From NCBI GenBank assembly GCA_964017185.1, contig OZ024880.1, forward strand, positions 43,041,071 to 43,105,070: a stretch of DNA of 64,000 nucleotides, in the 5' to 3' direction. The DNA comes from Rugalucina vietnamica (Eukaryota > Mollusca > Bivalvia > Lucinida > Lucinidae). Shown piece by piece: positions 3,411 through 59,830 of this stretch. Position 1 is the stretch's first letter. Each line of letters starts with the position of its first letter. Under the pieces are notes generated by a model. The model made no database searches, was not told the origin of the DNA, and was given only the letters and a program-made list of their open reading frames with translations. A program made the position numbers and the translations under genes.

Positions 3411-3412
3411 CC

Positions 3413-3973: not shown

Positions 3974-4570
3974 ATGCTTTTTTCGGCCTTTATAGATTTC
4001 AAAAAGGCATTTGATTTTGTTGTGAGAGATGTATTATGGTATAAATTAATTCAAATGGGGGTAAGAGGTAAAATACTCAATATAATTCAATCTATGTATA
4101 ATAATATTAAGTCCAGGGTGAAGTTTGATAATATTGTTAGTGAGGAATTCTCTAGTTTTCTTGGTGTAAGGCAAGGAGAATGCTTATCTCCTTTTCTTTT
4201 CAGTATGTATTTGAATGATATTGAGAATGTCTTAATTCAAAAAGGTACAGAAGGTTTTGATATTGGTATGTTGAAGTTATATCTCTTACTCTATGCAGAT
4301 GACATTGTTATTTTTGCTGAAACTAGTGAAGGTCTACAGTATGGACTGGATAATTTAGCTGAATATTGTAAAAAGTGGAAGTTGACTGTTCATATAGATA
4401 AAACAAAAATAATGATATTTAGGAAAGGGGGTAATTTAGTAAGGGATTTGAGTTTTAATTATGAAGGAGAAATATTGAAATTGTTGGAAAGTTTGTTTAT
4501 TTGGGAATCACTTTTACAACAGGTGGATCTTTTAATGAAACTCATAAAACATTATCAGGTCAGGGTTTAA
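3974..4570 (+). pseudogene. LINE reverse transcriptase catalytic core
   Basis: Contains motif A (AFIDFKKAFD), motif B (GVRQGECLSPFLFSMYLNDI) and motif C (YADD) in order, so the palm residues are intact here. The frame is entered by a second shift in a T6 run near 3977 and left near 4540-4570, where the C-terminal part continues in the third frame. Confidence 0.85.
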
Positions 4571-8886: not shown

Positions 8887-9965
8887 ACCTTGAAAAAAAA
8901 CATGAATGTTTGTATGAACATATTTTAAGGGGATTTTAATGGCAATTAAACTAAGCAATGACCCATTAATCTTCAGCTTTCATGATTTTAAGTAGATCAT
9001 CTTTCCATTAAAAGAAAAATTACAAGCATTTAATGGTCCAAAACTAAAAACTATACAATTAATGACCCTTAAAAATCACTTGAATAGTTGATTCAAAGTA
9101 TTTTAAGTATCTTTTAATGGATGGAACCACAATGCCAAAACATTAAATTTTCAAGCATCAATTTTAAGGAGAAACATGATAAAGCCAGCCACTGAAAAGC
9201 TTTCAAATTTTACAAGAAAAAAATAAGGGCCCTGAAACCCCAATTAAATTAGTATACAAAAAATAAGGGCCATGAAAAGCTTTCAAATTTTACAAGAAAA
9301 AAATTAAGGGCCCTGAAACCACAATTAAAACAGTATACAAAAAATTAAGGGCCATGAAAAGCTCTCAGATTTTACAAGAAAAAAATAAGGGCCCTGAAAT
9401 TACAATTAAAATAGTGTACAAAAAAATAAGGGCCCTGAAAAACTTTCAAATTTTACAAGAAAAAATTAAGGACCCTGAAACCCCAATTAAAATAGTATAC
9501 AAAAAATAAGGGCCATGAAAACTAAATTAAAATTTCAGCAGACATCTATGGTTGTAAAAAAGCTGTTAAAATTGTATACAAACAAAATTAAGGGCCCTTA
9601 TGGCTTCCTGTATTTATTCAATCAAAATGATGATATGATTCAGCATACTACCACATCCATTGTCTTACTGAAGCATACCAACATTCATCAATAAAAAAAT
9701 AATTATAGCCAAAACAGTGACAATTTAATAAACAATTTTGCAGAAAATAATCCTAAACTATTTATATATGTACACATGAGTCTCACCATGCTCTCTGATA
9801 TATTATGATAAAGTGTATTTCAACTAACTTTTTTAGCATTTTAAATGTTCCTTTAAAGGATAATGACAAAATGATATAAATAATTTGATTTCCAACATGA
9901 TTATAAACATGAGATGACTTTATTTACACCTATTTACATTTTAAAAACAAGACAAACTTCCTACG

Positions 9966-11315
9966 ATGTATTGGTTACCTAAGCTTCACAAAAGACCATA
10001 CAAAGCTAGATTTATTGCAAATTCTAGCTCTTGTACTACCACTGAACTTTCTAAATTATTAACTTCTTGTCTTACTGCTATCAAATCTAATGTTATAAGA
10101 TACTGTGAGACAGTGTATGAAACTTCAAATAAAAATTGGTTTTGGTCAATAAAAAATTCTGGTGAGGTGCTCAGTAAATTGAAGTGTAGAGGGTTCCGTG
10201 CGACAAGCTTGTCCACATATGATTTTTCTACTCTGTATACAACATTACCACATAATCTAATTAAAGAAAAATTTCTGGATTTGATAGAGTGGACCTTCAA
10301 AAGGGCATTAAAAAACTATGGTTCACTTTATTTGGCATGTAATGACAGAAAGGCTTTTTTCACTTCCTCTGACCAAAGTCGGTATACACTTTGGTCATGT
10401 CAGAATGTGTGCGACGCCTTATCCTATCTCCTTGATAATATTTATATTAGATTTGGGACCAAGTTATACAGACAAATTGTTGGAATTCCGATGGGTACAA
10501 ATTGCGCACCTCTCGTAGCTGATTTATTTTTATACTGCTACGAAAGAGATTTCATGGATTCTCTTAACCATGATAATCAAGCTGATGTTATCGAGGCTTT
10601 TAATTACACATCTAGGTACCTCGATGACCTTTTGAACATTGTCAACCCTTATTTTGAAGGTATGGTCAATCAAATTTATCCACCTGAACTTCAGTTGAAC
10701 AAAGCTAATATCTCAGATACCGAAGCCCCCTTTTTAGATATACATCTTTCTGTTGCAAATGGATTTGTTTCTTCTAAAATTTATGATAAGCGCGATGACT
10801 TTGATTTTGATATAGTAAATTTTCCTTTTTTGGATGGTGACGTTCCTCGTCGTGCTTCTTATGGTGTATACATTTCGCAACTTATTAGGTTTGCTAGAGT
10901 CTGCAATCATGTTACAGACTTCAACGCTCGAAATAAATGTTTAATGGCAAAACTTCTCCAACAGGGCTATCGGTATCATAAACTTCGAAAAACCTTTTCT
11001 AAATTTTATCGTAGACACTATGAATTGATTTCCAAATTTAATGTTGGGTTAAAGACACTTTTAAGTGAGGGCCTTTCGGAACCTGAATTTTATGGTGACT
11101 TGGTTTACAAATTAAAGAAACTTAAAGGAATAAATGATTTTTCTCTTCAGTTCGGAAAAATCATAACACGTTACAGACGTATAGGTTATAACTTGAATGT
11201 TATGCGACAGTCTGCATGCTTAGTTTTTAACCCAATCATGGTTGATAACTATGCTGCCTTCTTTAATTGCACGCCGGTGGGTCGGGCGTCAGACTCTATG
11301 ATGGCCTCGACTTAA
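9966..11315 (+). CDS. Naiad reverse transcriptase (N-terminally truncated)
   Basis: 449 codons, open throughout. Motifs in order: YWLPKLHKRPYKARFIANSS (fingers), DFSTLYTTLPH (motif A), GIPMGTNCAPL (motif B) and YLDD with the Asp pair at 10623-10628 (motif C). This RT style (GIPMGTNxAP plus YxDD, LHK motif) is that of Penelope-like elements, related to telomerase RT. The first Met is internal to the domain, so the endonuclease and early RT are absent and the copy cannot be autonomous. Confidence 0.85.
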   Translation: MYWLPKLHKRPYKARFIANSSSCTTTELSKLLTSCLTAIKSNVIRYCETVYETSNKNWFWSIKNSGEVLSKLKCRGFRATSLSTYDFSTLYTTLPHNLIKEKFLDLIEWTFKRALKNYGSLYLACNDRKAFFTSSDQSRYTLWSCQNVCDALSYLLDNIYIRFGTKLYRQIVGIPMGTNCAPLVADLFLYCYERDFMDSLNHDNQADVIEAFNYTSRYLDDLLNIVNPYFEGMVNQIYPPELQLNKANISDTEAPFLDIHLSVANGFVSSKIYDKRDDFDFDIVNFPFLDGDVPRRASYGVYISQLIRFARVCNHVTDFNARNKCLMAKLLQQGYRYHKLRKTFSKFYRRHYELISKFNVGLKTLLSEGLSEPEFYGDLVYKLKKLKGINDFSLQFGKIITRYRRIGYNLNVMRQSACLVFNPIMVDNYAAFFNCTPVGRASDSMMAST

Positions 11316-11360
11316 AGCTATTCATTTTTTTAGTTGGTTGGGGCCGGAGCTTCTTGTCTG
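11290..11360 (+). promoter_or_regulatory. SECIS-like hairpin over the RT stop codon, copy 1
   Basis: Lower stem CAGAC/GTCTG (11290-11294 with 11356-11360), ATGA at 11298-11301 opposite GGAG at 11346-11349, a 10-bp upper stem (GGCCTCGACT with GGTTGGGGCC) and an apical loop carrying AAA. The stop TAA (11313-11315) lies in that loop. One base differs from the other copy (T for C), and it still pairs as G-U. Confidence 0.6.
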
Positions 11361-12239
11361 TTGCTTGGCCCACCGGGATCCAACTGGTGTTTTTCTTTTG
11401 CTCCGGAGTTAGTAGGTTATTCGGCGCCCAGGGATCTCCATCGTCGGGCAGCTTACTCAATCTGTGAGTCCTGGTTTTTGATTCATCAGGATGTTTATCA
11501 TGATTTATTTGTTTGTTCTTGATGATTCATTGACTAGTTAGAGATTCACCACGAGGACCGAAGAACTAACTAAATGTTGTGAACCACTGCAGAAGCTGAG
11601 GGTGAGGTTAGGTACCTGTAAAACCGGTTTAAGCCCGCCAGTAACTTTGTGTTACTGATCGTTCCAAGTCGATACTTCTGTAGTGGTTTTTTTAGTTTTA
11701 TGTCTTGGTGTTTAAAATTTTTTGTGCTGTTGGCGCCTTATGTATGTTTTCATATTTTTAGTTAAGTTAAGGTAACTGAGTGGCCACCTATTGGGAAAAT
11801 AGCTGCTCATTCGGCTTACGATATGTTTCATGGTATATGTACCTGATTGTTGGTTTGTTTTTTTCCCGCCTCGGTTTTTGGAGTGGGAATCTTTTTCTGA
11901 TTGCGCCTTTTCCTGATCTTTGCCTACTTGTACCTTTTTATGAAACCACATCAATATGACAACAGTCATCCTTCCCTGTAACTTCCTGTGTTACATGCAC
12001 AAAACAGATTCTGTCCAGTTGGAATGCTTACTGATACAAGTCTACATGCTTCTTACATTATTCTTGAACTATCATGCAGTAGTGTCATATTGATTAGACT
12101 GCCTTTCAACCATCTTTCATACTGCATATTAATTATTCCTCGGTTAGATGCAACTGTGCTTCCCACCGGCCAGAATAAAATCTGCGCCCCACAGTTAGAG
12201 ACTACCATGTCCCCACTGACCCCCCTGTAAACATTCATG

Positions 12240-12562: not shown

Positions 12563-12746
12563 TTTAGTTAAGTTAAGGTTACTGAGTGGCCACCTATTGG
12601 GAAACTATCTGCTCATTCGGCTTACGATATGTTTCATGGTATAAGTACCTGATTGTTAGTTTGGTTTTTTCCCACCTCGGTTTTTGGAGTGGGAATCTTT
12701 TTCTGATTGCGCCTTTTCCTGATCTTTGCCTACTTGTACCTTTTTA
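12563..12746 (+). mobile_element. Naiad 3'-end fragment, forward
   Basis: Last 180 or so bases of the Naiad 3' UTR, including the hairpin TTCCCACCTC...GAGTGGGAA and the terminal CTTGTACCTTTTTA. Faces the inverted fragment at 12901-13258 across a poly-T tract. Confidence 0.8.
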
Positions 12747-12853
12747 TTTCGACATTTGTATCAACTAAGTACACCAACCATTATATATTACAACCATATG
12801 TCTTCATACTACCTCTATATGGCTATATGGACTGGTAGCCAAAAGTGATTAAT

Positions 12854-12854
<1 letters not shown>

Positions 12855-12898
<44 letters not shown>
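12855..12898. repeat. Poly-T tract
   Basis: Run of more than 40 T between two inverted Naiad tails. Confidence 0.9.
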
Positions 12899-12900
<2 letters not shown>

Positions 12901-12902
<2 letters not shown>

Positions 12903-13258
12903 AGGTACAAGTAGGCAAAGATCAGGAAAAGGCGCAATCAGAAAGAGATTCCCACTCCAAAAACCGAGGTGGGAAAAAACCAAACTAACAATCAGGCACT
13001 TATACCATGAAACATATCGTAAGCCGAATGAGCAGCTATTTTCCCAATAGGTGGCCACTCAGTTACCTTAACTTGATTAAAAATATGAAAACATACATAA
13101 GGCACCAACAGCACAAAAAAATTTAAACACCAAGACATAAAACAAAAAGAACCACCACAGAAGTATCGCCTTGGAACGATCAGTAACACAAAGTTACTGG
13201 CGGGCTTAAACCGATTTTACAGGATCCCAACCTCGCCCTCAGCTTCTGCAGTGGTTCA
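12901..13258 (-). mobile_element. Naiad 3'-end fragment, inverted
   Basis: Reverse complement of the Naiad 3' UTR from GAACCACTGCAGAAG to the 3' terminus. It includes the CAGTAAC/GTTACTG hairpin. Paired with the forward fragment at 12563-12746 it forms a tail-to-tail arrangement of the kind described for Penelope-like elements. Confidence 0.8.
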
Positions 13259-13632
13259 TTTATACACAGATATAAACATGAAATAAGGTAAATCATGATA
13301 AGAAAATATATGATGTAGGTACCAACATGTAACATGTATAACGGAAAGCAGGGTGAGCAGCTATTGAAGTAAGGTGGTAATAGTAAGTAATAGAATCTTT
13401 TGGAGGACTTGATGAATTGTATCAGTGCACCAATGACCTCACACCTAGCCTCTTTGCTCATTGTCACAATGCTTCCAGCCATGAGTCTTAGGTCTATAGC
13501 ACCACCTAACATACCTTCTCTATTGAGAATGTCCTGCATTGTCTGTTCTAATGTCTGTCTTTCCTCTTTATACAAATCACAATCATACAAATAGTGTTCC
13601 ACAGTTTCTGTAACTTTACATGATAAACACAA
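13259..13632 (-). pseudogene. LINE C-terminal fragment with Cys/His knuckle
   Basis: Begins with MCLSCKVTETVEHYLYDCDL, that is C-x2-C-x7-H-x4-C, the knuckle found after the RT in many LINEs, followed by a short helical tail. The frame then runs into the adjacent Naiad fragment. It lies head-to-head with the LINE fragment at 13629-14196. Confidence 0.6.
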
Positions 13633-30700: not shown

Positions 30701-33700
30701 AGTTTTACGTCCCTTTCAAGATTATTTCAGCTCATATGAGACGGGCCAATCGGTAGGTGGGGCGAAAATGGGAGAACCCCGAGAAAAACCACGTGGCACA
30801 CCCGCAAGCAGAACTTGGGCTTGTCTCACATGAGGCCAGATCGGGGATCGAACCCACACCAGTCACAGCGGTGAAAATGATCGAGTGATTAAGAAACAGC
30901 GCTATTAACCGCTCGGCCACGGGGCCGCTCATAAATGTCTATGTTCCGTAAATATGAAACAATGCTACGACAGTAAATAGAATAAAAATTGAAAAGACAT
31001 AAAAAAAAGTCTGCGATAGATTACCGGCGGGTAAACAATCTCTACGACATTTACTGCCATGTCAAAGCCAGTCGACCATCCTGAATATTGTTTGATGGTC
31101 TGGTACCGGTACGTCCACTGAAAAGAAAAACATCCGAGAACAAAATGATATAACATCTTGTGACTAGTGTACTTGCACGTCATCATTGTTTAGGCGAGCC
31201 CACTCTCATTTGTAGGGACTACATGTACATGAGCGATTTTTATTTCGATAAAATTCCCCTAAGCAACCTGAAATCCCCAAATGAAACGCCACGTTCCCGC
31301 CGTTACATATGTCCCATACATATCTTAGAATCACATATTGACCCTTGCGTTTTTACCTAAACAGGTTGAAATAAGTTTTATTTCAAATAAATATTTTCGA
31401 ATTACCTCGTTTCCCAAGAGCACACAGTATTCTTCAGCGTCTAGAATTGCCTGAGCGTAATCTCCATTATTTATTTCTTTGAATCTGGAAAATATAAATA
31501 TTTCAAAAACAAATAACTCAATAATTAATGAAGGGACAAGGTTTTAACCATTCATTTGATAAGGTTTTAACTTCAACTTGTAAATGAAACTGAAATGACC
31601 TTGGAATGATATTGAACTTGAATATTCACCAGCAAGTGTGTGTATCTTCGAACTTTGAGGTCATGGTCTACGAAACATTCTGAAAAATCAAAATCCATTG
31701 AAAAGACTATGTCGCCAAATAAGCAACTTAATATCAATTCTCTGTAACCACCAAAAAATTTCGGCACGCATAGTCTCAGAATTGGATGAAACTTTCACAC
31801 AATAATCAGTACCACTCAAAACCAAGAAAAATGTTGTCAATATTTATTTTGGTTCTTCCGTTGCCATGGCAACCGCAAAAATCATTTTTTCCAAATTTCG
31901 GTAAAAAGGTTGCAGATAATTTTCTTGAAAAATACACTTTTCATGGTCTAATATTTTATAGTTCCAAAAAGAGCCGACCTAAACCAATGCTTTACTTAAA
32001 ACAACTATCTACCCACTAACCTTCGGCATAGTTCATTTATAAATCAGTATGTGCATCTTGCCGCAGCAGCATCTTAAAGTATGGGCATTTAGCACTTTTA
32101 CAGAAAACGTGAAAATAAGAAAAATAGGCTAATTCTGAAAAACGATATCTTAAAAAGACTCGGGATTTGAACATTCTCTTGAGATTGATAAGAAACTACA
32201 ATGTATGACAGTTGTATCTGTGAAAAAAATGGATTGGGGCAAGATCATTTTCTGAAAATAACTAGTGCATATTTGATTGCACTTTTAAGTAATATGAAAA
32301 TTTAAGTTTTTAAGACAAAGGTGGTTGTCTGTGACTAGTTTTGTAATAAGACATGTTAAAAGCATAGCATTAATAATTCCCAATAGCAGGTGATATCTTT
32401 AATGTATTTTGCTAATAAATTTCTTTGTTTGAAGAAAATGTCACCAGATTTGCATGATTTTTAGCATTAAAATGGAAGAAAATAGGGGGTAGGGGAAGCA
32501 TATCAGCTGTATATTTTAATTGACAATGATATAAATAATGACGATTCTCTAAAATGAGCCAATATCCACCCAACTTTATTTTAAAGGCAAAAAAGATAAA
32601 GATTGTAAGTACTTGCATGCTCTCAAGGGCGATAACTCTTCAAAATTTGATGAAAATCGAAGGAATATTAGAGAAAATCAGATTTATCTGTTAACTGACA
32701 TATTTTTCTACATAAAACACATTGACTGACAATCCAATCAAATTTTGCCTATAGAAGGAAACAACCACAGTGCAATTAATTAGAATCTCACGTTGTGCTT
32801 ACAAAATATAACTAATTTTCTTGATTTTCGCTTTGAAATTGATACAAAATAGGGGGTAGGGGTAACATATCAACCATTTACTTTTATCGTAAATGCTGAA
32901 ACCAACCAAACTTCATTTACAAACATAACTATGAACTAAACAATACTTTAAAGATGAAACAGATATGGAGTGTAAGTATTTGTATGCTGTCAAGGGCGAT
33001 TACTCTTTGTGCTTTGGTGAAAAATGAAAGAAAATGTAAAAAATCGGATTTTTCGGTTTAACTGACATATTTTTCTGAATAAACCTCATTGGTAGCTAAT
33101 ATAAGTGTAATTGCCAAGTGTAGAAAAATGTTTATATGTAAATATTTGGAATCTGACACTGCGTTTACAAAATACAGCCCACTTTTCTTAATTTTGCCTA
33201 TGAAATTTAAGACAAATTAGGGGGTAGGGGTAACATATCAAACATATACTTTTATTGTAAATGCCGAAACCATCCAAACTTCATTTATAAACATACCTAT
33301 GAACTAAACTTTACTTTTAAGACAAAATAAGTATGGATTAAACGTACTTGTATGCTGTCAAGCGCAATAACTCTTCAGAATTTGGTTAAAAATGAAGGAA
33401 AATGTGAGAAAATTATATTTTTTATCTTTATCTGACAATTTTTTCTGAAATAACCACATTGGCAGTTAATGTAACTGCATTTGCCGATGGTAGAAACTCA
33501 TTTAAATGTTACTAATTGGAACCTGACACTGTGCTTACAGAATACAGCCTACTTTTCTTGATTTTGTCTGTGATGTTAAGACAAAATAGGGGGTAGGGGT
33601 AACATATCAAACATATATTTTTATTGGAAATGCTGAGATCAACCAAACTTCATTTACAAACATAATTATGAACTTAACTTTTCTTCAAAGGGGAAACTTC

Positions 33701-36700
33701 TATGGATTGTAAGTTCTTGTATGCTGTCAAGGGCGATAAATCTTCGAAATGTGATGAAAAATGAAAGAAAATTTGTGAGAATCAGATTTTTCTGTTTAAT
33801 TGACATATTCTTCTGAATAAACCTCACTGGCGGTAAATAAAACTGTCATTGCCAATAGAAGGGAAACATTAAATTGTAAATAATTGATATATGACAACAA
33901 CATACTCTTCTTGATTATTGGCTGTGAAACTGAGACAAAATAGGAGGTAGGGGTAACGTATCAAACATATACTTTTGTTGTAAATGCAGAGATGAACCAA
34001 ACTTCATTTACAAACATTATATATCTATGAACTGAACTTTATTTTTTGAAACAAAATAAATATGGGTTTCTAAAGCGTTTATGCTGTCAAGGGCGGAAAA
34101 TGTGAGAAAATCAGATTTTTCTTTTCACTTTCAAGATGAAATGAATACTTATTGTAAGTACATGTATGATGTCAAGGGCGATAACTCATTAAAATTTCAT
34201 GAAAAATGAAGGAAAATGTGAAAAAAATCAGATTTTTTGATCTGTTAATCTGACATATTTTTTTAAAATAAACCTCATTTGCGGCTAATATTTCTGTAGT
34301 TACCATTTAAATGCAAATAATTGATGTCAGACACTGTGCTTACAAAAACAACCTACAAATGACCATGTATTGGTCAAGGAACCAATCAATAAACTATATG
34401 TGAAAATGGAGCCTGAAAATAGTCACATTTTCTTTCAATTAAAGTGAATTGCTTGTGTAACCTATGTTTGTAAAGGATGTTTTGTTGATCCCAGAGTTTA
34501 AAACAAGTAGCCCAAGGGCAACGATCGCTCACCTGAGAGTCAACAAGAACAGTCACTGGACAATTTTTTTTTTTTTTTTTGTTTTTTTTTTTTGTTTTTT
34601 TTTTTTGAAAATCTGATCAAAATTGAAGATGCTGGAGTGGCCAGAACACTAACCAGAGGACCAATGGTCCTGTAAACGCTCACCTGAGACCTGAAATATA
34701 TACCAATAAACTTGTTTGACTAGAATGGTAATATACATGTATATAACCCCAGGGCAGGGTCAGAGCAACCTCTGGAGTCAATTTCTTCTTTAAATCATAA
34801 AGATTCAGTCCATCTGCCAATTTACTGCAAGTTTTGCCCTTCAAATGACATTGTAAATTTTTTCCCCATTCAAATGCATGGACAATCTAAGTTGACCTTG
34901 CCGTAAAAAAGGTCAAGGTCATCCCAAGGTCTTGATTTATACAAACTTTGTAGAGCTTCATTGCCTGAGGCTTCATGCCAAGTTTGGCTTTGATTGGCCA
35001 AGCGGTTTCATAGAAGAAGATGTTTGAATATTATGGTCATACACATGTATATAGCCCCAGGGCAGGAGTAGACAACCCTCTAGGCCCAAAATGTTTTCAT
35101 AAACATGAATATTCTGTCCATTTGCTCATTCTTTGCAAGTTTTTTGCCATTAAATGACATTTTCCTATTTTTTCCAATTCAAATGCATGGGGGGACTAAG
35201 TTGACCTTGCTGTAAAAAAGGTCAAGGTCATCCAAAGGTCATGATTTATACAAACTTTGTAGAGCTCTACTGCCTGATGCTTCATGCCAAGTTTCAAAAT
35301 CATAGGCCTTCTGGTTATGGAGAAGAAGATTTTTAAAGGTTTTTGCTATTTATAGCCATGGTGCCCATCTTTGTCATGTGACCCTGACCATTTATACAAA
35401 CTTTCATTCACTCTTCCTAAGAATGCTCCACATAAAGTTTGACTTTGATTGGCCAAGCGGTTTCATAGAAGAAGATGTTTGAATATTATGGTCATACACA
35501 TGTATATAGCCCCGGGTCAGGTGCAGACAACCCTCTGGGCCCAAAATATTTTCATAAACCTGAATATTCTGTCCATTTGCTCATTCCTAGCAAGTTTTTT
35601 GCCATTTATTGACATTTTTCAATTTTTTCCTATTCAAGTTTGGCTTTGATTGGCCAAGCGGTTTCAGAGAAGAAGATGTTTGAATATTATGGTCATACAC
35701 ATGTATATAGCCCCAGGGCAGGAGTAGACAACCCTCTGGGCCCAAAATGTTTTCATAAACATGAATATTCTGTCCATTTGCTGCTCATTCTTTGCAAGCT
35801 TTTGCCATTAAATGACATTTTCCTACTTTTTCCCATTCAAATGCATGGGCAACCTAAGTTGACCTTGCCGTAAAAAAGGGCACGGTCATCCCAGGGTCAT
35901 GATTTATACAAACTTTGTAGAGCTTCATTGCCTGATGCTTCATGCCAAGTTTCATAATCATAGGCCTTCTGGTTCTGGAGAAGAAGATTTTTAAAGGTGT
36001 TTACTATTTTTAGCCATAGTGGCAATCTTGGTCATGTGACCTGGACCATTTATACAAACTTTCGTCCCCCCTTCGTAAGGATGCTCCACATGAAGTTTGG
36101 CTTTGATTGGCGTAGTGGTTTCAGAGTAGAAGATCTTTGAAATTGTGAACGACGGACGACGGACGCCGACGGACGACGGACGACGATGGACGCCGGAGCA
36201 TGGGTATACTATAAGCTCACCTGTGAGCCTTCGGCTCAGGTGAGCTAAAAATTGATTTTTTCAAACATTCAAGGGCAGCTAACTCCGCAGGCCAGGGTCG
36301 AATCTGGCTCAAATTCGAACTCATTCAAGATGTTATGGTTATCCTTGTTTCTTCCTAGTATGAAGAAGATCTGATCAAAATCGAAGGCGCTAGAGTGGCC
36401 ACATTACAAAATATAGATTTTTCAAACACTAAAGTGCAGTTTACCCCGCAGTCAGAGGTCGGATCTGGTCGAAATTCGAACTCATCCGAGATATTGTAGT
36501 GATTCTTGTTACCTGCAAGAATGAAGAAGATCCACTGAAAAACAAAGATTCTAGAGTGGCCACAACACAAAATATGAATTTTTCAAACACTCAAGAACTC
36601 ATCCAAGATATTGTAGTTATCCTTGTTACCTGCAAGAATGAAGAAGATCCAATGAAAAACAAAGATCCAATTTAATTTAAAAATGAAGTTGCTAAAGTGG

Positions 36701-39700
36701 CCACAACATTTCCCCCATTATAACTCAATGGGAGCTATCTGTTGCCATGGAAACCAGAGTTCTGATCCGACCTGGCCCAAAACCTAATGCAACCTTTCCC
36801 TCTCCTCAATGATGCTTTAGATTAAATTTGATCGCGATTAACCTTGTTGTCTTAGAGATATTCAAGATTGAAATTGTGAACGGACGGACGCACAGACGCC
36901 GGCTCGACTACCATTCTATAAGCTCACCTTGTGAGCCTTTGGCTCAGGTGAGCTAATAAAAGACGATATATGAGCCGCCTCGTGGGAAAACCAACAATGT
37001 GGTCTAGGAACAGTTCCGACACAGACCAGCCTGCACAGTCACAGAAAAGAGCTAGAAGCTTGAAATTTCGGATTTAAGGATGTTCGCTGCCAATGAAAAA
37101 GTATTCAAACTTTTTTTCTTACCACTCTTTTTTGATTCCAAAATACAATACAAGACATTTTTGAAAACAAAATAAGTATAGGGTAGTGTGCATTTTTTCA
37201 AGCTACAGGTCTGTGAATGAGACCGCTATACACCATATTAAATATTTAGTAAAATTAATTCAATTTTTAATTCTTTGAAACATACCCGTCTTGAACAAAA
37301 ATATACCCAGAAAGATTTTAAAAGTCATAATTTTTACGTAATGCAGACTATTTTTGACCAAAAGCATAGAAAAATTTGCAATTTGAAGTGGATGACAAAA
37401 TTTTACGAGTCGTTTTCCACCCTACCCCAATACTTGAAAAGTCGAAAAATCAATATTTTGAAATGTGCCAAACCTATATTTGTAAATTCAAACTTTTTCT
37501 TGTATTTTCACACAACATAGATCTTGGTAATATTGTTCGAATAAAAGAAAGAAATATATAGGGTAGTGTGCATATACGAGAGAACCAACAACTTGAAAAT
37601 CGCCATTTTAAGCCTTTTTTCGGCTGTTTTATTTCTTAAAGCCCATTTCATAAAACCATCCAAAATTTTAAAACTAGCATACCAAAGACAGAAAGACTGA
37701 CTAAGAAGACAATGCTAAAATAAACATAGAACTAGTGCAATCTATTTGAAGATGTGTAATATGCAAGTTTAATCTACCCTACCCCCTAAATTTTACTGAC
37801 AACTAAGTTTCAGAAAAAGTGCAGAAAATGGGGAGAAAAAATGAAGTTCCTTAGATTGACAATTTTTGCGGCTCGTTCAATGCATATCATCAATATGTAT
37901 CCAAATATAAAATATTAGGAAAATATCTGCAACCGTTTAGAAGATATTCAACAAAATAAAAACCGGCAGTTCCGAAATGTCAAATGTTGCCAGCGAACAT
38001 CCTTAAACAGAAGAAGAATTGTACTATCCGTGAAGCAAAAACAAAGGCTCTGATCAGCTTCACGGTTAACGCGAAGCTGATCTGTGCCTTTGTTTTCGCC
38101 TATGCAGATTGTTGGTCTTCCCGTGTGGTGGTTCATATATATATATATATATATATATATTGGGAGAAATAGGACAAACATCAAACAAAAATCTTCCCGG
38201 TGGCACTGGATCCTAAGAAAGGATTCGAAAATGACTGAAATAAGTATATAGGGGGATTAAACCATTAACAGTGCAAGAATAAATCAAACTAAGCGCGCTT
38301 TCGGCTTTCGCCTTCTTCAGAGTCAATATGTATTTACAGGTAAAAACTGGAAAAAAATGAAAAAAAGGTAAATAAACAAAATAAATAAAAAACAATGCAA
38401 AAATACACAAATACACAAAAATCACATGAAATGTGACAAAGTTGACACCACTGTATGTTCGGCAGTGGGTAAACGACTTAAAATTAATTCATGAACGCCC
38501 TTTATATATATATATATATATATATGTCACCCCTATCCCCTATTTTGTGTAAAAGTTAAAAATCAGGATAATTAGGTTGTGTATATTATATAAACACTAA
38601 GTTGGATTCCAATCATTGGCATTAAACATGTTTTCTTCTGCTGACATGTGCAACGTATTGCCCAAAATGTGTTTTAGTTAAGAAAGATATGTCCTGTTAA
38701 CTGCCAAAAAAATGCCATTTTCAAGCAATTTCCAAGCAATTTTCAACACTTTTCGAAGATTTATCCTTCTTGACAGCATACAAGAAAAAACATCAATATT
38801 TATTTCGTGATTAAAGAAAATTTAAATTCAAAAATACTTTTGTTACCGACGTTTGGTTTATCTCAGCAATTAGAATAAAAGTATACAGTTGATATGTTAC
38901 CCCTACCCCCCATTTTATCTCAATTTCACAGCCAAAAGAAAGAAAACTTGGTTGTATTTTGTAAGCACAGTGTCAGATTCTAATTACATTAAAATGGTTT
39001 GCTACTACTGGCGGATATATGAACCGCCTGTGTGGTTTATTCAGACAAATATGTCAGTTAAACAGAAAAATCTGATTTTCTCACATTTTCCTTCATTTTT
39101 CATCACATTTCGAAGATTTATCGCCCTTGACAGCATACAAGTACTTACAATCCATATAAGTTTTGTCTTAAAAGAAAAGTTTAGTTCACATTTATGTTTA
39201 TAATTGAAGTTTAGATGGTTTCGGCATTTACAATTAAAGTATGTGTTTGATATATTACCCCTACCCCCCAATTTGTCTCAAATTTCAGTCATAGGCAAAA
39301 TTAAGAAAAGTAGGCTGTATTCTGTAAGCACAGTGTCAGGTTCCAATTATTTACATTTTAATGATTTTTCTACCATTGCAGTTACATTAACCGCCAATGC
39401 GGGTAATACAGAAAAATATGGCAGATAAAGAGAAAAATGTCATTTTCTCACATTTTTCTTTATTTTAAACCAAATTCTGACGAGTTATCGCCCTTGACAG
39501 CATACAAGTACTTTCAATCCATACTTATTTCGTCTTTAAAGTAAAGTTTTGTTTATAGTTCTGTTTATAAATGAAGTTTGGATGGTTTCGGCATTTACAA
39601 TAAAAGTATATGTTTGATATGTTACCCCTACCCCCTAATTTGTCTTAAATTTCATAGGCAATCATTTATGCTCTAAGTCTACTATCACTTCATCTGTGAA

Positions 39701-42700
39701 TGGTAGGACATTTTCAGTTGTTAATGATTCTGATTTAGACTGAAAATCAATGGATCTTGTATATGTTCTTACTTGAAATACAAACAACTGTAGGATGCAA
39801 TATGTCGGACAAACTTGTCGAACTTTGCAAAAACGATTTGGTGAGCACTATCGTAGAATTCGAAAGCCCAAAAATAATGATACCTTTCTGTACCAACATT
39901 TTAAGCGCACTGGTCATTCTCCCAATAATGTTATAGTTCAACCAGTGGAGAAAATCTCATATGATGTAAATTCTTCGGTTAGGTTCAAAAACATCAAACG
40001 ATTTGAAACTGAACTTAAATGGATAAAATTATTGCAAACTCCCTTTCCACTGGGATTTAACGACAACATTTACCATGAAGGTAATATTTCTAAGATGCCC
40101 GATTTTGATGTTCTTACACTTTTAGAGTCTCGTAAACGTAAATCTAGATCTCATGGTATACGGAAAAAGGGCAATGACAAACGTAAGCGGTGCGCTGCAA
40201 TGAAATTGAACACTTCCCTTAATGATTTAGCTGTTAAACTAAGGATTCATGGTCGACATCCAATGCTGTCTTATCTTAGTTCTCTACCTATTGCTATATT
40301 ACGTTCCTTGGACACAGAGGCTAATAGATTTTACGATAGAAATCATCAAATGTATGACGCTGCACTGTTAACAAGATGTTATACTCAGCATGCTCTCCGT
40401 CCATTTATCGATTCCGAATCTAATCACATTAGAAGTTTTATTAAAATTCCTTTCATTAATAAAGGAATTGACTTTATTGATTTACCAAGCATATTCCAGG
40501 ATAAATCAGTGATTCAGTCTATACCTACGTACTTCCAAAATTCAGAACCTCCTATTATTTGTTACAAATATAATAAACCAATCAGAAATACTATTTTTAA
40601 TTTCAATAAGCTTGTTTCTGATCTTGATATCCATGCAAATACTCCTAAGTCTTGAGATTGTAAAGATTCAAAATTTGTTTATCAACCAGCCGGACATATA
40701 GTTACTGGAAATTTAAAAATAATTTCGGATTCTAGAATTCGCAAAATTGTTTCTAAAGGTCCGAAATATAGATTCCCTTCCTACATTAATTTCGACAAAT
40801 GTAGAGAGGAGATTGCATCTGCATTGAATGATTTCGGTAATCGATGGTGTAAACGAGAGGGTGTTGAAGATAATGCTCTTAAAGAATGGAAAAGAAGTAT
40901 CTTCACTATCGTGGATAAACGTATAAAGTTTTATTCACAAAATACTAATCTTTTACCTCCTAAGCCCAAATCGTCATTTAGGCATTTGAAGCAGGGTATC
41001 CAGGAATTTCACAGAAAGTATGTCTTGGTTCCGGCAGACAAAGCCGCAAACAATGTTGTCGTCGTTTGTAGGCTACACTACGTTAACACCTTAAAGCAGG
41101 AGCTTGATGGTACCAGGGCTTATCTGGAGACAGATACTGATGAAATGTCTGTAGTTAATACCCATTTAAACGATTTACCTATTAAGTTTTCTGTTTGTGT
41201 CAATGAAGGCCAAGACAAACTTCCTACGATGTACTGGTTACCTAAGCTTCACAAAAGACCATACAAAGCTAGATTTATTGCAAATTCTAGCTCTTGTACT
41301 ACTACTGAACTTTCTAAATTATTAACTTCCTGTCTTACTGCTATCAAATCTCATGTTATAAGATACTGTGAGACAGTTTATGAAACTTCAAATAAAAATT
41401 GGTTTTGGTCAATAAAAAATTCTGGTGAGGTGCTCAGTAAATTGAAGTGTCGAGGGTTCCGTGCGACGAGCTTGTCCACATATGATTTTTCTACTCTTTA
41501 TACAACATTACCACATAATTTAATTAAAGAAAAACTTCTGGATTTGATAGAGTGGACCTTCAAAAGGGCATTAAAAAACTATGGTTCACTTTATTTGGCA
41601 TGTAATGATAGAAAGGCTTTTTTCACTTCCTCTGACCAAAGTAGATATATACTTTGGTCATGTCAGAATGTGTGCGACGCCTTATCCTATCTCCTGGATA
41701 ATATTTATATTAGATTTGGGACCAAGTTATACAGACAAATTGTTGGAATTCCGATGGGTACAAATTACGCACCTCTCGTAGCAGATTTATTTTTATACTG
41801 CTACGAGAGAGATTTCATGGATTCTCTTAACCATGATAATCAAGCTGATGTTATCGAGGCTTTTAATTCCACTTCTAGGTACCTCGATGACCTTTTGAAC
41901 ATTGACAACCCTTATTTTGAAGGTATGGTTAATCAAATTTATCCTCCTGAACTACAGTTGAACAAAGCCAATATCTCGGATACCGAAGCCCCCTTTTTAG
42001 ATCTACATCTTTCTGTTGCAAATGGATTTGTTTCTTCTAAAATTTATGATAAGCGCGATGACTTTGATTTTGATATAGTAAACTTTCCGTTTTTGGATGG
42101 TGACGTTCCTCGCCGTGCTTCTTATGGCGTATACATTTCGCAACTTATTAGGTTTGCTAGAGTCTGCAATCATGTTACAGACTTCAACGCTCGTAATAAA
42201 TGTTTAACGGCCAAACTTCTCCAACAGGGCTATCGGTATCATAAACTTCGAAAAACCTTTTCTAAATTTTATCGTAGACACTATGAATTGATTTCCAAAT
42301 ATAATGTTGGGTTAAAGACACTTTTAAATGAGGGCCTTTCGGAACCAGAATTTTATGGTGACTTGGTTTACAAATTCAAGAAACTTATAGGAAGTAATGA
42401 TTTTTCTTTTCAGTTTAGAAAAATCATAACACGTTACAGACGTATAGGTTATAACTTGAATGTTATGCGACAGTCTGCATGCTTAGTTTTTAACCCAATC
42501 ATGGTTGATAACTACGCTGCCTTCTTTAATTGCACGCCGGTGGGTCGGGCGTCAGACTCTATGATGGCCCCGACTTAAAGCTATTCATTTTAGTTGGTTG
42601 GGGCCGGAGCTTCTTGTCTGTTGCTTGGCCCACCGGGGTCCAACTGATGTTTTTCTTTTGCTCCGGAGTTAGTAAGTTATTCGGCGCCCAGGGATCTCCA

Positions 42701-45566
42701 TCGTCGGGCAGCTTGCTCAGTCTGTGAGTCCTGGTTTTTGATTCATCAGGATGTTTATCATGATTTATTTGTTTGTTCTTGATGATTCATTGACTAGTTA
42801 GAGATTCACCACGAGGACCGAAGAACTAACTAAATGTTATGAACCACTGCAGAAGCTGAGGGTGAGGTTACGGCCGTGTAAAATCGATTTAAGCCCGCCA
42901 GTAACTTTTTGTTACTGTTCGTTCCAAGTCGATACTTCTGTGGTGGTTCTTTTTGTTTTATGTCTTGGTGTTTAATATTTTTGTGCTGTTGGCGCCTTAT
43001 GTATGTTTTCATATTTTTAGTTAAGTTAAGGTAACTGAGTGGCCACCTATTGGGAAAATAGCTGCTCATTCGGCTTACGAAATGTTTTCATGGTATAGGT
43101 ACCTGATTGTTGGTTTGGTTTTTTCCCACCTCGGGTTTTTGGAGTGGGAATCTTTTGCTGATTGCGCCTGTTCCTGATCTTTGCCTATTTGTACCTTTTT
43201 AAGAAAATTGGGCTGTATTTTGTAAACGCAGTGTCAGATTCCAAATATTTACATATAAACATTTTTTCTACACTTGGCAATTGCACTTATATTAGCTGCC
43301 AATGAGGTTTATTCAGAAAAATATGTCAGTTAAACCGAAAAATCCGATTTTTCACATATTCTTTCATTTTTCACCAAAGTAAAAGAGTTATCGCCCTTGA
43401 CAGCATACAAATACTTACACTCCATATCTGTTTTGTCTTTAAAGTATTATTTAGTTCATAGTTATGTTTGTAAATGAAGTTTGGTTGGTTTCAGCATTTA
43501 CAATAAAAGTATATGGTTGATATGTTACCCCTACCCCTATTTTGTCTCAATTTCAAAGCTTAGATCAAGAAAATTTGTTATATTTTGTAAGCTCAACGTC
43601 GGATTCTAATTAATTGCACTTTGGTAGTTTCCTTCTATAGGCAAAATTTGATTGGATTGTCAGTCAATGTGTTTTATGTAGAAAAATATGTCAGTTAACA
43701 GAAAAATCTGTTTTTCTCTAATTTTCCTTCGATTTTCATCAAATTTTGAAGAGTTATCGCCCTTGAGAGCATGCAAGTACTTACAATCTTTATCTTTTTT
43801 GCCTTTAAAATAAAGTAGGGTGGATATCAGCTCATTTTAGAGAATCGTTATTCTTTATGTCATTGCCAATTAAAATATACAGCTGATATGCTTCCCCTAC
43901 CCCCTATTTTCTTCCATTTTAATGCTAAAAATCATGCAAATCTGGTGTTATTTTCTTCAGTCAAAGGAATTAATCAGCAAAATACCATAAAAATATCACC
44001 TGCTATTGGGAATTATTAATGCTAGGCTTTTAACATGTCTTATTACAAAACTAGTCACAGACAACAACCCTTATCTTAAAAACTTAAATTTTCATATTAC
44101 TTAAAAGTGCAATCAAATATGCACTAGTTATTTTCAGAAAACGACCTTGCCCCAATCCATTTTTTTTCACAGATACAACTGTCATACATTGTAGTTTCTT
44201 ATCAATCTCAAGAGGGTGTTCAACTCCCGAGTCTTTTCAAGATATGGTTTTTCAGAATGTGCCTATTTTTCTGATTTTCACGTTTTCTGTAAAAGTGCTA
44301 AATGCCCATACTTTAAGATGCTGCTGCGGCAAGATTCCCATACTGATTTATAAATGAACTATACCGAAGGTAAGTGGGCAGATAGATCTATTTAGTAAAG
44401 CATTGGTATAGCTGGGCTCTTTTTGGAACTATAAAATATTAGACCATGAAAAGTGTAATTTTCAAGAAAAAAATCTGCAAATTTTTACCGAAATTTGGAA
44501 AAACTTATTTTGGCGGTTGCCATGGCAACGGAAGAAGCAAAATAAATATTGACAACATTTTTCTTGGTTTTTAGTGGTACTGATCATTGTGTGAAAGTTT
44601 CATCCAATTCTGAGACTATGCGTGCCGGACCCCCATGTTAAAATTTTGGTGGTTACAGAGAATTGATATTAACACAAGGTAATGATATAAACATATTTCG
44701 TTTCCCTGATGCTGCATATATGTATCAAGTTTTGTTGAAATTGGTCCACTGATCCCAGAGGAGACGATATCTAAGGCTTTGTTACCACATATGACCAGTT
44801 TGGTTACGAGACGCAGACCATTCATATCAACTTTAGTCCACATTTATCATGACGAATGGATTTTCCCATCATTATCATTTGGGTAAGTGCACTTCCACGT
44901 TTAGGGGCATTTTTATCTCATTTTTCGATGAAAATCCTTTAAGCAAACAGAAAAGCCCCAGATGGGACGCCGCGTTCTGCGGCGTCTCATCTGGAGCTAT
45001 TCTGTTTGCCTATGCCCCATAAATAGTGCGCCAGGCTTATACGAGTTGTTTCTCGCGGGCCACGGAAAGGCATTGATTGACATGCGGTCTAAACGGAGAA
45101 TAAACATTTTGAAAGATGTTGACGGACAATGAACGCCAGAGGATGCTATCGGCTCCGGTGAGCTAAACATCTGCTTCATGGTGAGCGTCGCCAACACACT
45201 ATTTTTGTAGTGTTTACGTAGGAGAGGGATATTTAATTACTTTCTAAGACAAAATGAAAATTTCCCGATTAATACCCCGTGGCATAGGGCAAGTTGCCCG
45301 GCAAGTTGACATTTTAATATCTCGGTTACAGCTGTAGTGTTATATAATAATCATCATAACTCTAACACAAGGATAGCTTTTAAAATAGCTAGAAGCGGCT
45401 CGTTTAGCATTTTGTATTATGACCACACCATTTTGGAAATCTATTCATTTTTTAAACAAATAAACTTGTATGCTAGTGGTTTCTGAGAAAACAAATTTCT
45501 TATTTTGATGTGCATGAGCTCAAGATTACTCTCACACTGATCTCATGAGAATAAGTCGTAAAGTAA

Positions 45567-55505: not shown

Positions 55506-56029
55506 AAAGACAAAGCGTTTATACCATTATCTGAACTCATAGTCAGGACCCTTTCTTCTGAAAGACAGTTTAAAGTCGGGACCGTCTGAGGTCCGACACA
55601 CCGGCGTGAAATTAAAGAGAAATTCAAAACCTTTTATATGTTTTAACCGTATTTTTGGTGAAACTCAAAGCATACTGTATGATCCTTAACATTCATATAA
55701 ATACTGGTTGAAAATCGTGTTGAATAATGTAGAAAAGTTTACTCATTTAAGATCTTTATTACTTTCATTCCAAATTTCCCTATAGTCATAATACTCGTCG
55801 TGGGTTCCGACATCCCTTGAAGAAGAAATGTGTTTCAATTTAATTGATTATGGCAGAGGACATTAACACAAAGATACAGAGAAGCAAATATGCCGCATGC
55901 AATACAGGATCGGTGCTGAAACAACCGAATTTAACATACAAGCTATGTCAAGAAGAGTGCGGAAGATCAAAAGATTCACTGACATTCGGGAAAAGTTGAA
56001 CATATGTGCCCCCGTGTAACCTTTTAGTT

Positions 56030-56310
56030 GGTTGGGACCAGAGCTTCTTGTCTATTGCTTGGCCCACCGGGGTTCAACGTGTTTTTCTTTTGCTCTGGAG
56101 TTAGTAAGTTATTTGGCGCCCTGCGATCTCCATTGTCTGGCAGCTTACTAAATCTGTGATTTTTCGTTTTTATTCATCATGGTGGTAATCATGATTTATT
56201 TGTTTGTCCTTGATGATTCATTGACTAGTTAGAGTCTCACCACGGAACGAACAAGTAACTAAACTGAACCACTGCAGAAGATGAGGGCGAGGTTTTTTCC
56301 TGCAAGTACC
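56030..56310 (+). mobile_element. Naiad 3'-end fragment
   Basis: Starts in the SECIS right arm (TTAGTTGGTTGGGACC, AGAGCTTCTTGTCT) and continues to GAACCACTGCAGAAG. Diverged; the left arm of the SECIS is missing. Confidence 0.7.
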
Positions 56311-56769
56311 TTTTCATTTCTTCTGTATCAGATATAGATGAAAGGGACAATAAACATGTTGGGGCGTTGCCTCCATTTTATGCAACTTCTACCCATGATC
56401 GGGGCGTAATGACATCCGAATTGTGCTTTGAATATAACCATTCAATTATATTGTGGTTTGATTCATTGACACCTACTTTTCCTGGGCAGGATCTGGCCTT
56501 CTAAGCTTTAACAGTAACCAAGGAGTCGGCAAGTCGATAATAAGCTTTGCCTGGAGGCACAATCAGTCCAATTATTGTTCACGGTTCGGAAACTAAACGT
56601 TCCCATGGAGCAAGTTTTGATATAGTAAGAGGCTTTGGTTTTCTCTGTCAATTCTCTTAGATACGCAATGACGGACCCTTTTTTCGCATGTGAAGATTGT
56701 TGGTTTTCTAATGATGCGTCTCGTTTAATTATATCAAATACTGGTATTCCTATTCGCATTTTATCAGTT

Positions 56770-56908
56770 CTGTTGTAGTTTTATTTATTCTGTGTCTTGG
56801 TGTCGGTTTCTTTGCCATTTTCAACTATTATGTGCGGATTCATATACATATGTCTAGTTGAGTTCAGGGAAAAAGAGTGATCACCTTTAAGGAAATAGCT
56901 GCTCTCTT
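56770..56908 (+). mobile_element. Naiad 3' UTR fragment, diverged
   Basis: Contains TCTGTGTCTTGGTGT and AAATAGCTGCTC phrases in the order of the Naiad 3' UTR, with large gaps. Confidence 0.45.
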
Positions 56909-57405
56909 ACAGGGATCTCCATCGTCGGGCAGCTTACTCAATCTGCCTCGTTTTTTGATTCATCATGGTGTTTATCATGATTTATTTGTTTGTCCATGAT
57001 GATTCATTGACTGGTTAGATTCATCACGAGGACCGAACAACTAATTAAATGATGTGAACCACTGCAGAAGCTGAGGGTGAGGTAAGGTACTGTAAAATCG
57101 ATTTAATCCCGCCAGTAATTTTATATTACTGATCGTTCCAAGGCGATACTTCTGTGGTGGTTCTTATTGTTTTATGTCTTGGTGTTTAAATTTTGTGCTG
57201 TTAGCGTCTTATGTATGTTTTCATATTTTTTGTTAAGTTTAAGTAACTGAATGGCCACCTATAGGGAAAATAGCTGCTCATTCGGCTAACGATATGTCTT
57301 CATGGTATAAGTACCTGATTGTTAATTAAGTTTTTTTCCCACCTCGGTTTTTGGAGTGGGAATTTTTTTCTGATTGCGCCTTTTCCTGATCGTTGCCTAC
57401 TTGTA
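56909..57405 (+). mobile_element. Naiad 3'-end fragment
   Basis: From GGGATCTCCATCGTCGGGCA to near CGTTGCCTACTTGTA, with the 15-bp stem and both hairpins recognisable. Follows two other Naiad tail pieces in the same orientation. Confidence 0.8.
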
Positions 57406-57668
57406 TCTCTCGGCTTATTGTTTGTTATCTGTATCTAAGTATCTATTTGTCATTTTGGAAATAGTTGAACCCCAGTGGGCATTAATGGACAAGAACAAGT
57501 TCAGCACGAAGAAAGATTATCCTCTCGGGCGCAATTAGACCATGTTTGTGTTATCACTAGGTATATAGGGAATGAGATAAAGCCATGTTTGTTTGTTTGC
57601 ATCGGATTGTATTTTACAAGACATTACATTTTCTACAAAGCTGAAAAATCATGAAATTGACAAACGTT

Positions 57669-57955: not shown

Positions 57956-59830
57956 TCAGCTTATAATTTTACGGAAATCGGCAATGCCAAAGAACGTGTC
58001 TGTGATCAATTCATGGCAGCATGTTTTATCACCACGATAACATCTCCATTCCCGACACAGCGGTTTGTCGCAGTGACATATCGGTCGATGTGGGGGCTTA
58101 GTTGGTGAAACCGCCGTAGGTGTTATAGTTCTAGTTGTCGTTGACGATGTTGTACCAGATGTCGGCGAGGTAGTTGATCCAGTCGACATTTCCGTCGGCT
58201 TAATGGAGCTAGTTAATGAAGTCGGTGATTGCGTAGGTTTAACTGTCCTTGTTGTCATTGAAGGTGTTGTCTCAGATGTAGGTAACACTGTTGAACTTGA
58301 GCTAGTAGATACAGACGTCGGTGTAATTGTTGATTCTGTCGACGTTTTTCTTGGCGTTTCATTCATAATTGTCGTTGAAGATGCTTGCGCCGGTGTCGAG
58401 GACATTGTTGATCCAGTCGAAGATTTCACTGACCTTACTGGCGTAGATATTGTTGTAATTAATGATGCAGATGTCGGTCCCATTGTTGATCTTGTCGACG
58501 TTTTTGCTGATATTAACATGGTTGTTGTCGCTCGAGTTGTTTGTGTATCTGACGAAGTGCTCGTCATTGGTGTTTTGGACGGGGATGTCGGGCTTTCAGT
58601 TGTTTCAGCCGTCATTGTTGATACTGACGAAATGTCAGACTGTTCAGTTGACGTGTTGTCTGACGGTATTGATGAAGAAGCAATTGCAGTTGTCTCCGAA
58701 GTCGACGACGTCATTGATGATGTTGCTTGTGATAAAGTCGACAACGGTTTAGTCAAAAGTGTCGATGCGATCGTCGATTTTCTATCAGTTGCCGATGTCG
58801 ATTGTATCGCGGAAGTTGTCGACTGTGGCGTTGATTCAGGTGTTGATGGTTCTGCTGATGCTGTTGTATGATGTTTTTCGATTGTAGTCCGTGACCGTGT
58901 TGATGCTGTTGCTAGGGGTGGTTCTGAGGTAGTTGTTACAGGTTGAAACGACGTAGACGCCTTTGCTTGTGTTGGCGATGGATGTCCCGATTCAGTATCT
59001 TTTGTTGTCAGCGATCTAGTAGTTTGGTTTTCTGTTGTAGTTGAAACCGTCCCTGTTGTAGTTGAAATGGATGGAAATGATGTAGAAGTCATTGAAGCAG
59101 TTGACTGAGAACGCGAAGAATTGGCTGTCGTAGATATTGGTGAACGTGTTGAGGATGGTGGATTAGACTCTGACATTGTTGGACTAGATTGTGGCGTAGT
59201 CTTTGTTTCACTCGATGCAGTAGTAGGTGACTGTGTTGTGGGTTTTCTAGAATGCCGTGCTGACACAGTTTCTGTGACTTCCGTCAAACGTGTTGAAGAC
59301 CGAGATGTCACTGTAGTAGAAGCCCCAGGTGATAAAGTTGAAGGCTGCCCTGTATCCGCTGTATTTGCATATGTTGAGGAATCGTTTTGGGGCTCAAGAG
59401 AAGTAGCAGCTGTTGTAGGCCAATAAGATGCCATAGTTTGCGACTGGGCTCTCTCAGCTGTGGGTGTCGATGGGCGTGCAGTTACAGTCGTAGATGGGTC
59501 AGAGGTGGCTACAGATGTTCCAGTGGTAATAGATTGACTGAAAATAGTATGTGAATTAGTAGCCGTCGTTGTCGATGTTCGCTCCGTCGATGGTGTCTGG
59601 GGATTAGACAAAGTTGTAATTGGTCGAGATGTTGCAAAATCCAGGGACTGATCTGGATTTGTCGAAACATTGTTCGGAACTGCTGATGCTACTGTAACCG
59701 GATGTCCTACTGTCGAAACTGTCGACGAAGATTTGGACGCAGTTGTGGTCTCGGATCTCACCGTCGTTGATGAGCTGGCCAAATTACCACACATCTCATC
59801 AATGTCGGTGCACTCGCCATTGTAGCAGAT
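57956..59830 (-). CDS. Gene B last exon: mucin-like region and six-Cys module
   Basis: 1875 bp, 624 residues. Starts ICYNGECTDIDEMCGN (as YCYLGNCTEG in gene A), then about 550 residues dominated by Ser and Thr with Pro, with imperfect repeats toward the end (SPTSGTTSSTTTRTITPT), then CHCDKPLCREWRCYRGDKTC and a second Cys, ending FRKIIS. Confidence 0.9.
   Translation of the reverse strand: MCYNGECTDIDEMCGNLASSSTTVRSETTTASKSSSTVSTVGHPVTVASAVPNNVSTNPDQSLDFATSRPITTLSNPQTPSTERTSTTTATNSHTIFSQSITTGTSVATSDPSTTVTARPSTPTAERAQSQTMASYWPTTAATSLEPQNDSSTYANTADTGQPSTLSPGASTTVTSRSSTRLTEVTETVSARHSRKPTTQSPTTASSETKTTPQSSPTMSESNPPSSTRSPISTTANSSRSQSTASMTSTSFPSISTTTGTVSTTTENQTTRSLTTKDTESGHPSPTQAKASTSFQPVTTTSEPPLATASTRSRTTIEKHHTTASAEPSTPESTPQSTTSAIQSTSATDRKSTIASTLLTKPLSTLSQATSSMTSSTSETTAIASSSIPSDNTSTEQSDISSVSTMTAETTESPTSPSKTPMTSTSSDTQTTRATTTMLISAKTSTRSTMGPTSASLITTISTPVRSVKSSTGSTMSSTPAQASSTTIMNETPRKTSTESTITPTSVSTSSSSTVLPTSETTPSMTTRTVKPTQSPTSLTSSIKPTEMSTGSTTSPTSGTTSSTTTRTITPTAVSPTKPPHRPICHCDKPLCREWRCYRGDKTCCHELITDTFFGIADFRKIIS

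Follow-up and report, generated by a model that had tools for sequence, protein, structure and literature searches.

Three in-frame UGA codons at cysteine positions in a Naiad-type Penelope-like element of the bivalve Rugalucina vietnamica: evidence for a selenoprotein encoded by a mobile element

A stretch of 64,000 nucleotides from the lucinid bivalve Rugalucina vietnamica (assembly GCA_964017185.1, contig OZ024880.1, forward-strand positions 43,041,071 to 43,105,070; hereafter the window) carries a copy of a Naiad-type Penelope-like element, which is multi-copy and recently active, and whose open reading frame (ORF), of ~1,077 residues where the start codon is present, very probably encodes a selenoprotein with three selenocysteines. 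We infer the decoding of UGA as selenocysteine (Sec) from the open frame, the placement of the UGA codons, selection on the encoded protein, a selenocysteine insertion sequence (SECIS) at the end of the ORF and the tRNA-Sec loci of the host. The case is well supported for a mobile element in which production of the endonuclease-reverse transcriptase requires that three UGA codons be decoded, most probably as selenocysteine. A preliminary description of this DNA, made from the sequence alone, had proposed a multi-selenocysteine Naiad, and this reading found support on each testable point, with the SECIS and tRNA-Sec added to the case; what it had missed was the SECIS at 42553-42620 and the loss of the start codon and N-terminus in the window copy. 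The features of the element in the window are the following.

39663..42578, + strand: 971-codon open frame containing three TGA codons and followed by TAA; without start codon and N-terminus
39741..39743, + strand: TGA 1 (residue 27), in a column otherwise Cys, shortly before the GIY-YIG domain (from alignment, fetched copies and the ends of relatives)
39774..39776, + strand: TGA 2 (residue 38), in a column otherwise Cys, the first Cys of a pair between the GIY and YIG motifs (from alignment and fetched copies)
40653..40655, + strand: TGA 3 (residue 331), opening the CxC motif of the linker (UGA-Asp-Cys, residues 331-333; from alignment, fetched copies and the ends of relatives)
42553..42620, + strand: SECIS element (Rfam RF00031, SECIS_1), 39.0 bits with a gathering cut-off of 35, overlapping the stop and the 8 sense codons before it (of which the first only partly)
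42576..42578, + strand: UAA terminator, its two A's coinciding with the first two positions of the conserved AAA in the SECIS (from the SECIS alignment and the reading of the overlap)
39753..40040, + strand: GIY-YIG endonuclease domain (approximate; residues ~31-128), placed by aligning the protein with relatives that have a Pfam match
40656..42575, + strand: reverse transcriptase part and C-terminus, with a telomerase-like fold; RVT_1 of the relative P0035 maps to ~41298-41909 (residues ~546-757; from alignment and Foldseek)
39658..43200, + strand: the whole element, a 5'-truncated Penelope-like element of Naiad type set within a repetitive stretch, its ends uncertain by a few bases (from the flanking repeat and comparison with copy L025)
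42579..43200, + strand: rest of the 3' untranslated region (UTR) of the element, inside a stretch 96% identical to the second window copy
9948..11945, + strand: second, more truncated copy, 96% identical, with its reverse transcriptase part open (455 codons) and a SECIS-like match at 11290-11360

Along the frame from 39663 to 42578 the only nonsense codons before the TAA at 42576 are the TGA codons at 39741, 39774 and 40653, the coordinates that the preliminary description had given, and the terminator is TAA, not UGA, the in-frame UGAs standing at columns that are Cys in homologs. A protein search returned 131 relatives, of which 120 were listed, and among the distant Naiads aligned at each site Cys occupies the column in 44/47 sequences at site 1, 51/53 at site 2 and 90/102 at site 3, the partner Cys 333 being C in 96/100. 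Both the earlier claim that the three codons replace expected cysteines and the claim that the third forms UGA-Asp-Cys in the CxC linker are upheld, CxC being present in most aligned relatives. The exceptions at column 331 (12/102) carry W in six sequences and other letters in another six (P0013, P0014, P0016, P0022, P0075 and P0083), whose N-terminal parts look fused or unrelated and which were kept in the 102. On a crude estimate, in which each nonsense codon is taken as a random single-step change and Cys to TGA makes up ~6% of such changes, three out of three nonsense codons would fall at Cys sites by chance at ~2e-4; this figure is in line with the argument made earlier that random decay is unlikely to give three TGA at Cys positions.

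The copies of the family in the same genome (1.09 Gb, 47 contigs) are known from overlapping lists that hold the best-scored candidates only (in the full-length search, 47 out of 34,011 first-look candidates were scored), so that decayed copies are under-sampled. In the full-length search 47/47 scored copies carry exactly three TGA, and neither TAA nor TAG, over 971 codons; the query had Cys at the three sites, such that copies with real Cys codons should rank higher, and none appeared. The N-terminal half used as query gave 71/73 copies with three TGA only, one with four TGA and one with an extra TAG; a distant Cys-type query gave 46/48 scored matches (of 17,199 first-look candidates) with three TGA and no other stop, the remaining two having a TAG in addition; and a search for the third site only gave 55/58 copies with one TGA, two with two TGA and one (L029) with a TAA and no TGA. 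These per-copy tallies are counts without positions; the positions come from a codon-by-codon reading of the fetched copies, where TGA stands at site 1 in 6/6, at site 2 in 7/7 and at site 3 in 20/20. Fetched copies are not all independent (L017/L018 and L019-L021 look like mutual duplicates), and L001-L008 were excluded as repeats of the window copy and of L009-L015. An equal load of TAA and TAG in related copies, named in the preliminary description as an outcome that would speak against Sec, is not seen among the best-scored copies, the 47/47 of the full-length search having TGA only.

The same columns can be followed in database proteins through the points at which these end. With the stretch between UGA 2 and UGA 3 as query, 1,222 matches were found, and among the best-listed 120 of them 76 terminate exactly before column 331, a further 2 within three residues and 24 earlier, 12 continue unaligned and none has Cys at the column. 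Likewise, with the N-terminal 132 residues of L025 as query (445 matches, best-listed 120 examined), 100 terminate exactly before column 27, a further 3 within two residues and 6 earlier, and 3 continue unaligned. The relatives with exact ends are 66-100% identical at site 1 and 58-97% at site 3, so that the UGA columns appear to be kept as stops in relatives down to ~60% identity. Ordinary gene calling evidently splits such genes, since a UGA column is the exact end point of most of the best-listed 120 relatives examined with either piece. The earlier expectation that these columns would be Cys or UGA in all copies stands in its main part (Cys in distant relatives, mostly a stop in close ones) and fails for a few relatives with W, S or L and for the TGG of L029; similarly, the varied sense codons that would have spoken against it are mostly absent, apart from these same cases.

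Selection on the coding sequence was estimated as dN/dS, the ratio of nonsynonymous to synonymous divergence, by the method of Nei and Gojobori with the window copy as reference. Against copies of the other subfamily spanning all 971 codons dN/dS is 0.06-0.07 at a dS of 0.14-0.15, and by segment, for five other-subfamily copies, it is 0.07-0.09 between UGA 2 and UGA 3 and 0.04-0.05 after UGA 3. In terms of amino-acid changes relative to L025, 8 are seen where 25 would be expected from placing the same changes at random between UGA 2 and UGA 3, and 10 where 46 would be expected after UGA 3. Against the ~99% identical copies dN/dS is 0.12-0.29 on few changes, and dS among the five long copies is only 0.008-0.025. 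The preliminary description had predicted dN/dS below 1 across the UGAs, and in the two segments long enough to tell, UGA 2 to UGA 3 and beyond UGA 3, it is far below 1.

SECIS_1 is the only Rfam family above cut-off in the window, and the element is found not only here but also in 20/20 fetched copies (L009-L028; 22 matches, 37.4-39.0 bits), in each case overlapping the end of the ORF and not lying wholly in the 3' UTR; in the second window copy the match at 11290-11360 scores 34.9 bits, just below the cut-off of 35. The predicted folding energy of the stretch is -32.9 kcal/mol (z -4.37), and the 5' AUGA and apical AAA motifs are both kept. Its 5' arm codes for the last residues of the protein (S-D-S-M-M-A-P-T), the UAA consisting of the U before the A-run and the first two A's. 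Among the 120 listed relatives S-D-S-M-M occurs in 14, which are 72-98% identical and all end three residues later in T, several of them being so close to the window protein that they may stem from the species of the window; P0021 ends S-D-A-M-M-A-R-T, and the motif is in no other of the 120, many predictions being partial. Such a shared C-terminal peptide, known from proteins alone, is what a conserved SECIS at this place would give. As for the host, two tRNA-Sec loci lie above the Rfam cut-off (79 and 71.2 bits), with 22 further matches below it, and ARAGORN reads the anticodon TCA (UCA) in both.

The identity of the element follows from several features. Naiads are Penelope-like elements with permuted domains, in which the GIY-YIG endonuclease is N-terminal, and GIY-YIG precedes the reverse transcriptase in all four relatives scanned for positions with Pfam (P0035, P0113, P0033 and P0036; RVT_1 in the last three scores under the cut-off), an order that maps onto the window protein. 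Over 45 aligned sequences Pfam finds GIY-YIG in 31 and RVT_1 in 28; the window protein itself gives no Pfam match above cut-off. An AlphaFold2 model of the latter, built on the 45-sequence alignment, reaches a mean predicted local distance difference test score of 85.8 and a predicted template-modelling score of 0.70, and with the whole model as Foldseek query against the Protein Data Bank the first 16 matches are all telomerase chains (best E 1.4e-10), as befits a Penelope-like reverse transcriptase, related to that of telomerase. The CxC of the Naiad linker is present provided that UGA is read as Sec (UGA-Asp-Cys, 331-333). The CCHH pattern, reportedly universal to Penelope-like endonucleases except in Chlamys, is likewise found if U is counted as Cys (U38, C43 and two later His at aligned positions). 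An insertion-in-fingers domain in the reverse transcriptase is a further trait of Naiads in general. Naiads are not known to carry a hammerhead ribozyme motif, and none was found in a scan of the window and the 20 copies at Rfam gathering thresholds, SECIS_1 being the only family detected. Head-to-tail copies and 5' truncation are typical of Penelope-like elements; here head-to-tail copies are common at a spacing of ~4,226 bases (C11, C15), a 3' end is followed by a 5' region in L016, L022, L025 and L027, and truncation points vary.

The window copy is itself a product of such truncation. Matches to the flanking repeat reach 39661 and resume at 43199, and the letters shared with L025 run from 39658 to ~43200. 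An upstream extension of the frame to an ATG, without TGA in that part, is found in L016, L022, L025 and L027; in L025 the ATG lies 106 codons upstream of the first codon of the window frame, which gives 132 residues before the first UGA and ~1,077 in all. L023 and L028 span all 971 codons without that upstream ATG. Lacking a start codon and ~106 residues, the window copy cannot make the whole protein and is most likely inert, recording what an active source copy encodes. It is ~99% identical to L009-L014, whose matches to it start at different points, and this points to recent, separate, truncated insertions.

Several observations weigh against the selenoprotein reading. The codon of most database relatives is seen only as a protein end or as W, the end-point test covers sites 1 and 3, and the DNA of the close family was read from one assembly. 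Among the listed 120 of 1,222 matches W stands at site 3 in 5 and S in 1, and among the listed 120 of 445 W stands at both site 1 and site 2 in 6 and L at site 1 in 2; L029, chosen as odd-looking, has TGG at site 3 and a TAA at codon 434. In the SECIS, GGAG replaces the UGAU of the Rfam consensus on the 3' side of the quartet, with GA kept, and the element straddles the stop codon, so that termination might disturb it. The tRNA-Sec model also passes its cut-off in 5/14 prokaryote control genomes, which makes the match supporting and not decisive. Before UGA 1 dN/dS is 0.29-0.62 on 2-4 changes, a ratio that means little, and the 10 codons between UGA 1 and UGA 2 show no changes at all. Finally, 4/21 copies (the 20 fetched and the second window copy) carry an extra stop or an indel, namely a TGA in L012, a TAG in L015, an insertion in L013 and a deletion in L028, the other 17/21 having no other stop or indel in the part covered.

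The W residues bear on the most probable of the alternatives, in which UGA is read by another route, as general readthrough, as Trp or as some other amino acid, and which we regard as very unlikely. Sec decoding is here deduced from sequence, and W does occur at the sites in some database proteins. W at both sites 1 and 2 fits a TGA passed through a gene caller with TGA=W, and a single-step change from TGA could likewise give W, S or L; the six relatives with W at both are, moreover, not all independent, P0275, P0287 and P0295 having the same tail. For P0003, P0012, P0017, P0018, P0028 and P0087, which have W at UGA columns, two sources are possible, gene calling with TGA=W or TGG mutants retained because their ORFs are longer; P0087, with W at all three columns, fits the former. 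That TGG mutants exist is seen in L029, and in P0096, otherwise Cys-type, a lone W replaces Cys. These two sources best explain the database W, and against another route stand, in addition, the coincidence of the sites with Cys columns and the SECIS at the ORF end in every fetched copy.

A second alternative, to which we give very little weight, holds that a defective source copy, itself non-autonomous, inherited three stops and was amplified in trans by another element, its UGAs never being decoded. Copies in one genome do have their sites in common by descent from few sources. However, amino-acid selection downstream of UGA 2 and UGA 3, seen between subfamilies at a dS of 0.15, is not expected if these parts are untranslated, and the distant Cys-type query retrieved TGA-type copies in all of its 48 best-scored matches. 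That the ORF is simply a decaying pseudogene with three chance TGA codons is least credible of all, for although the window copy is truncated without a start codon and some copies do decay (L012, L013, L015, L028, L029), all 47/47 scored copies have exactly three TGA and no other stop, dN/dS is ~0.06, most listed relatives have a stop at the same columns and a SECIS is present.

If the three UGA codons are indeed decoded as Sec, the SECIS at the ORF end would be loaded by the SECIS-binding protein and the Sec elongation factor of the host, and the ribosome would insert Sec at UGA 1, 2 and 3 and terminate at the UAA inside the SECIS. A stop at UGA 1 or UGA 2 would leave neither endonuclease nor reverse transcriptase intact, and a stop at UGA 3 would give an endonuclease without reverse transcriptase. 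The amount of complete protein made is therefore expected to depend on selenium as well as on the Sec machinery, and the selenium dependence of transposition becomes directly testable. The Sec residues would replace cysteines that are probably metal ligands, in the endonuclease Cys pair and in the CxC linker. We further propose, tentatively and with somewhat less than even confidence, that the SECIS is built into the coding end with the overlap fixed across the Sec-Naiad clade, such that the ribosome transiently unfolds its own recoding signal and host selenium gates transposition; fixation across the clade is suggested by the matching C-terminal peptide in the 14 relatives that are 72-98% identical.

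Column 469 (window 41067-41069; C in 109/120 and W in 11/120 homologs) was considered as a fourth Sec site and is not claimed. The W carriers are mostly close relatives of the window family, and the W is probably a true TGG because P0019, P0022 and P0023 match only from residue 339 at the earliest, after the third UGA column, which is what a gene caller that treats TGA as a stop would produce; in this genome the column is TGT in 20/20 copies. DNA-pattern searches confirmed no relative in viral contigs and one in genome contigs, L032, filed as a Flavobacteriales metagenome-assembled genome and 30-31% identical, with TGT, TGT and TGC at the sites, the second beside an alignment gap; this Naiad-like contig is presumably a eukaryotic contaminant.

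Elsewhere in the window further fragments of the 3' tail of the element lie at 12563-13259 and 56022-57408, one of them inverted, and the dispersed, locally repeated sequence that hosts the element occupies 32459-34356, 38500-39661 and 43199-43930. By eye, ORFs at 2820-5382 resemble a broken reverse transcriptase of the long interspersed nuclear element type, and a 638-codon open frame on the minus strand at 57956-59872 is Thr/Ser-rich and mucin-like, one end being rich in Cys.

Craig, Yushenova, Rodriguez and Arkhipova reportedly described multi-selenocysteine Naiads from clams and spiders in 2021 (Mol Biol Evol 38:5005), and these families reportedly likewise combine an N-terminal GIY-YIG, a CxC linker, a reverse transcriptase, several in-frame UGA codons and tandem copies; the window family may be one of those already published. 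A literature search, covering mainly openly available papers, showed none on Sec-type Naiads among the records listed, which has no bearing on priority; PMC10941475 names Naiads. The Cys-type Naiads (for example P0025-P0027 and P0029-P0047), 36-43% identical, have C at each of the three columns that they cover, where the window has UGA, and in contrast to the window family they do not show the C-terminal S-D-S-M-M, some of the predictions being partial. Two of them, P0025 and P0026, Naiad-like proteins of ~1,300 residues, also contain a Pfam ubiquitin carboxyl-terminal hydrolase domain.

According to a review, every SECIS of cellular origin is located in the 3' UTR, with fowlpox as the exception (PMC8310308), and the fowlpox virus GPX4 is described as having its SECIS inside the reading frame (PMC6769590, PMC8310308). 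Fowlpox GPX4 and the window element are alike in that the SECIS overlaps coding sequence, and they differ in that the former is a captured cellular glutathione peroxidase gene with an in-frame UGA, whereas the latter is a retroelement with three UGA codons and a SECIS that straddles the terminator. Multi-Sec Naiads are reportedly a known kind of element, to which the present family adds a SECIS overlapping the stop codon in every fetched copy and UGA columns conserved to considerable depth among relatives, two features that may be new.

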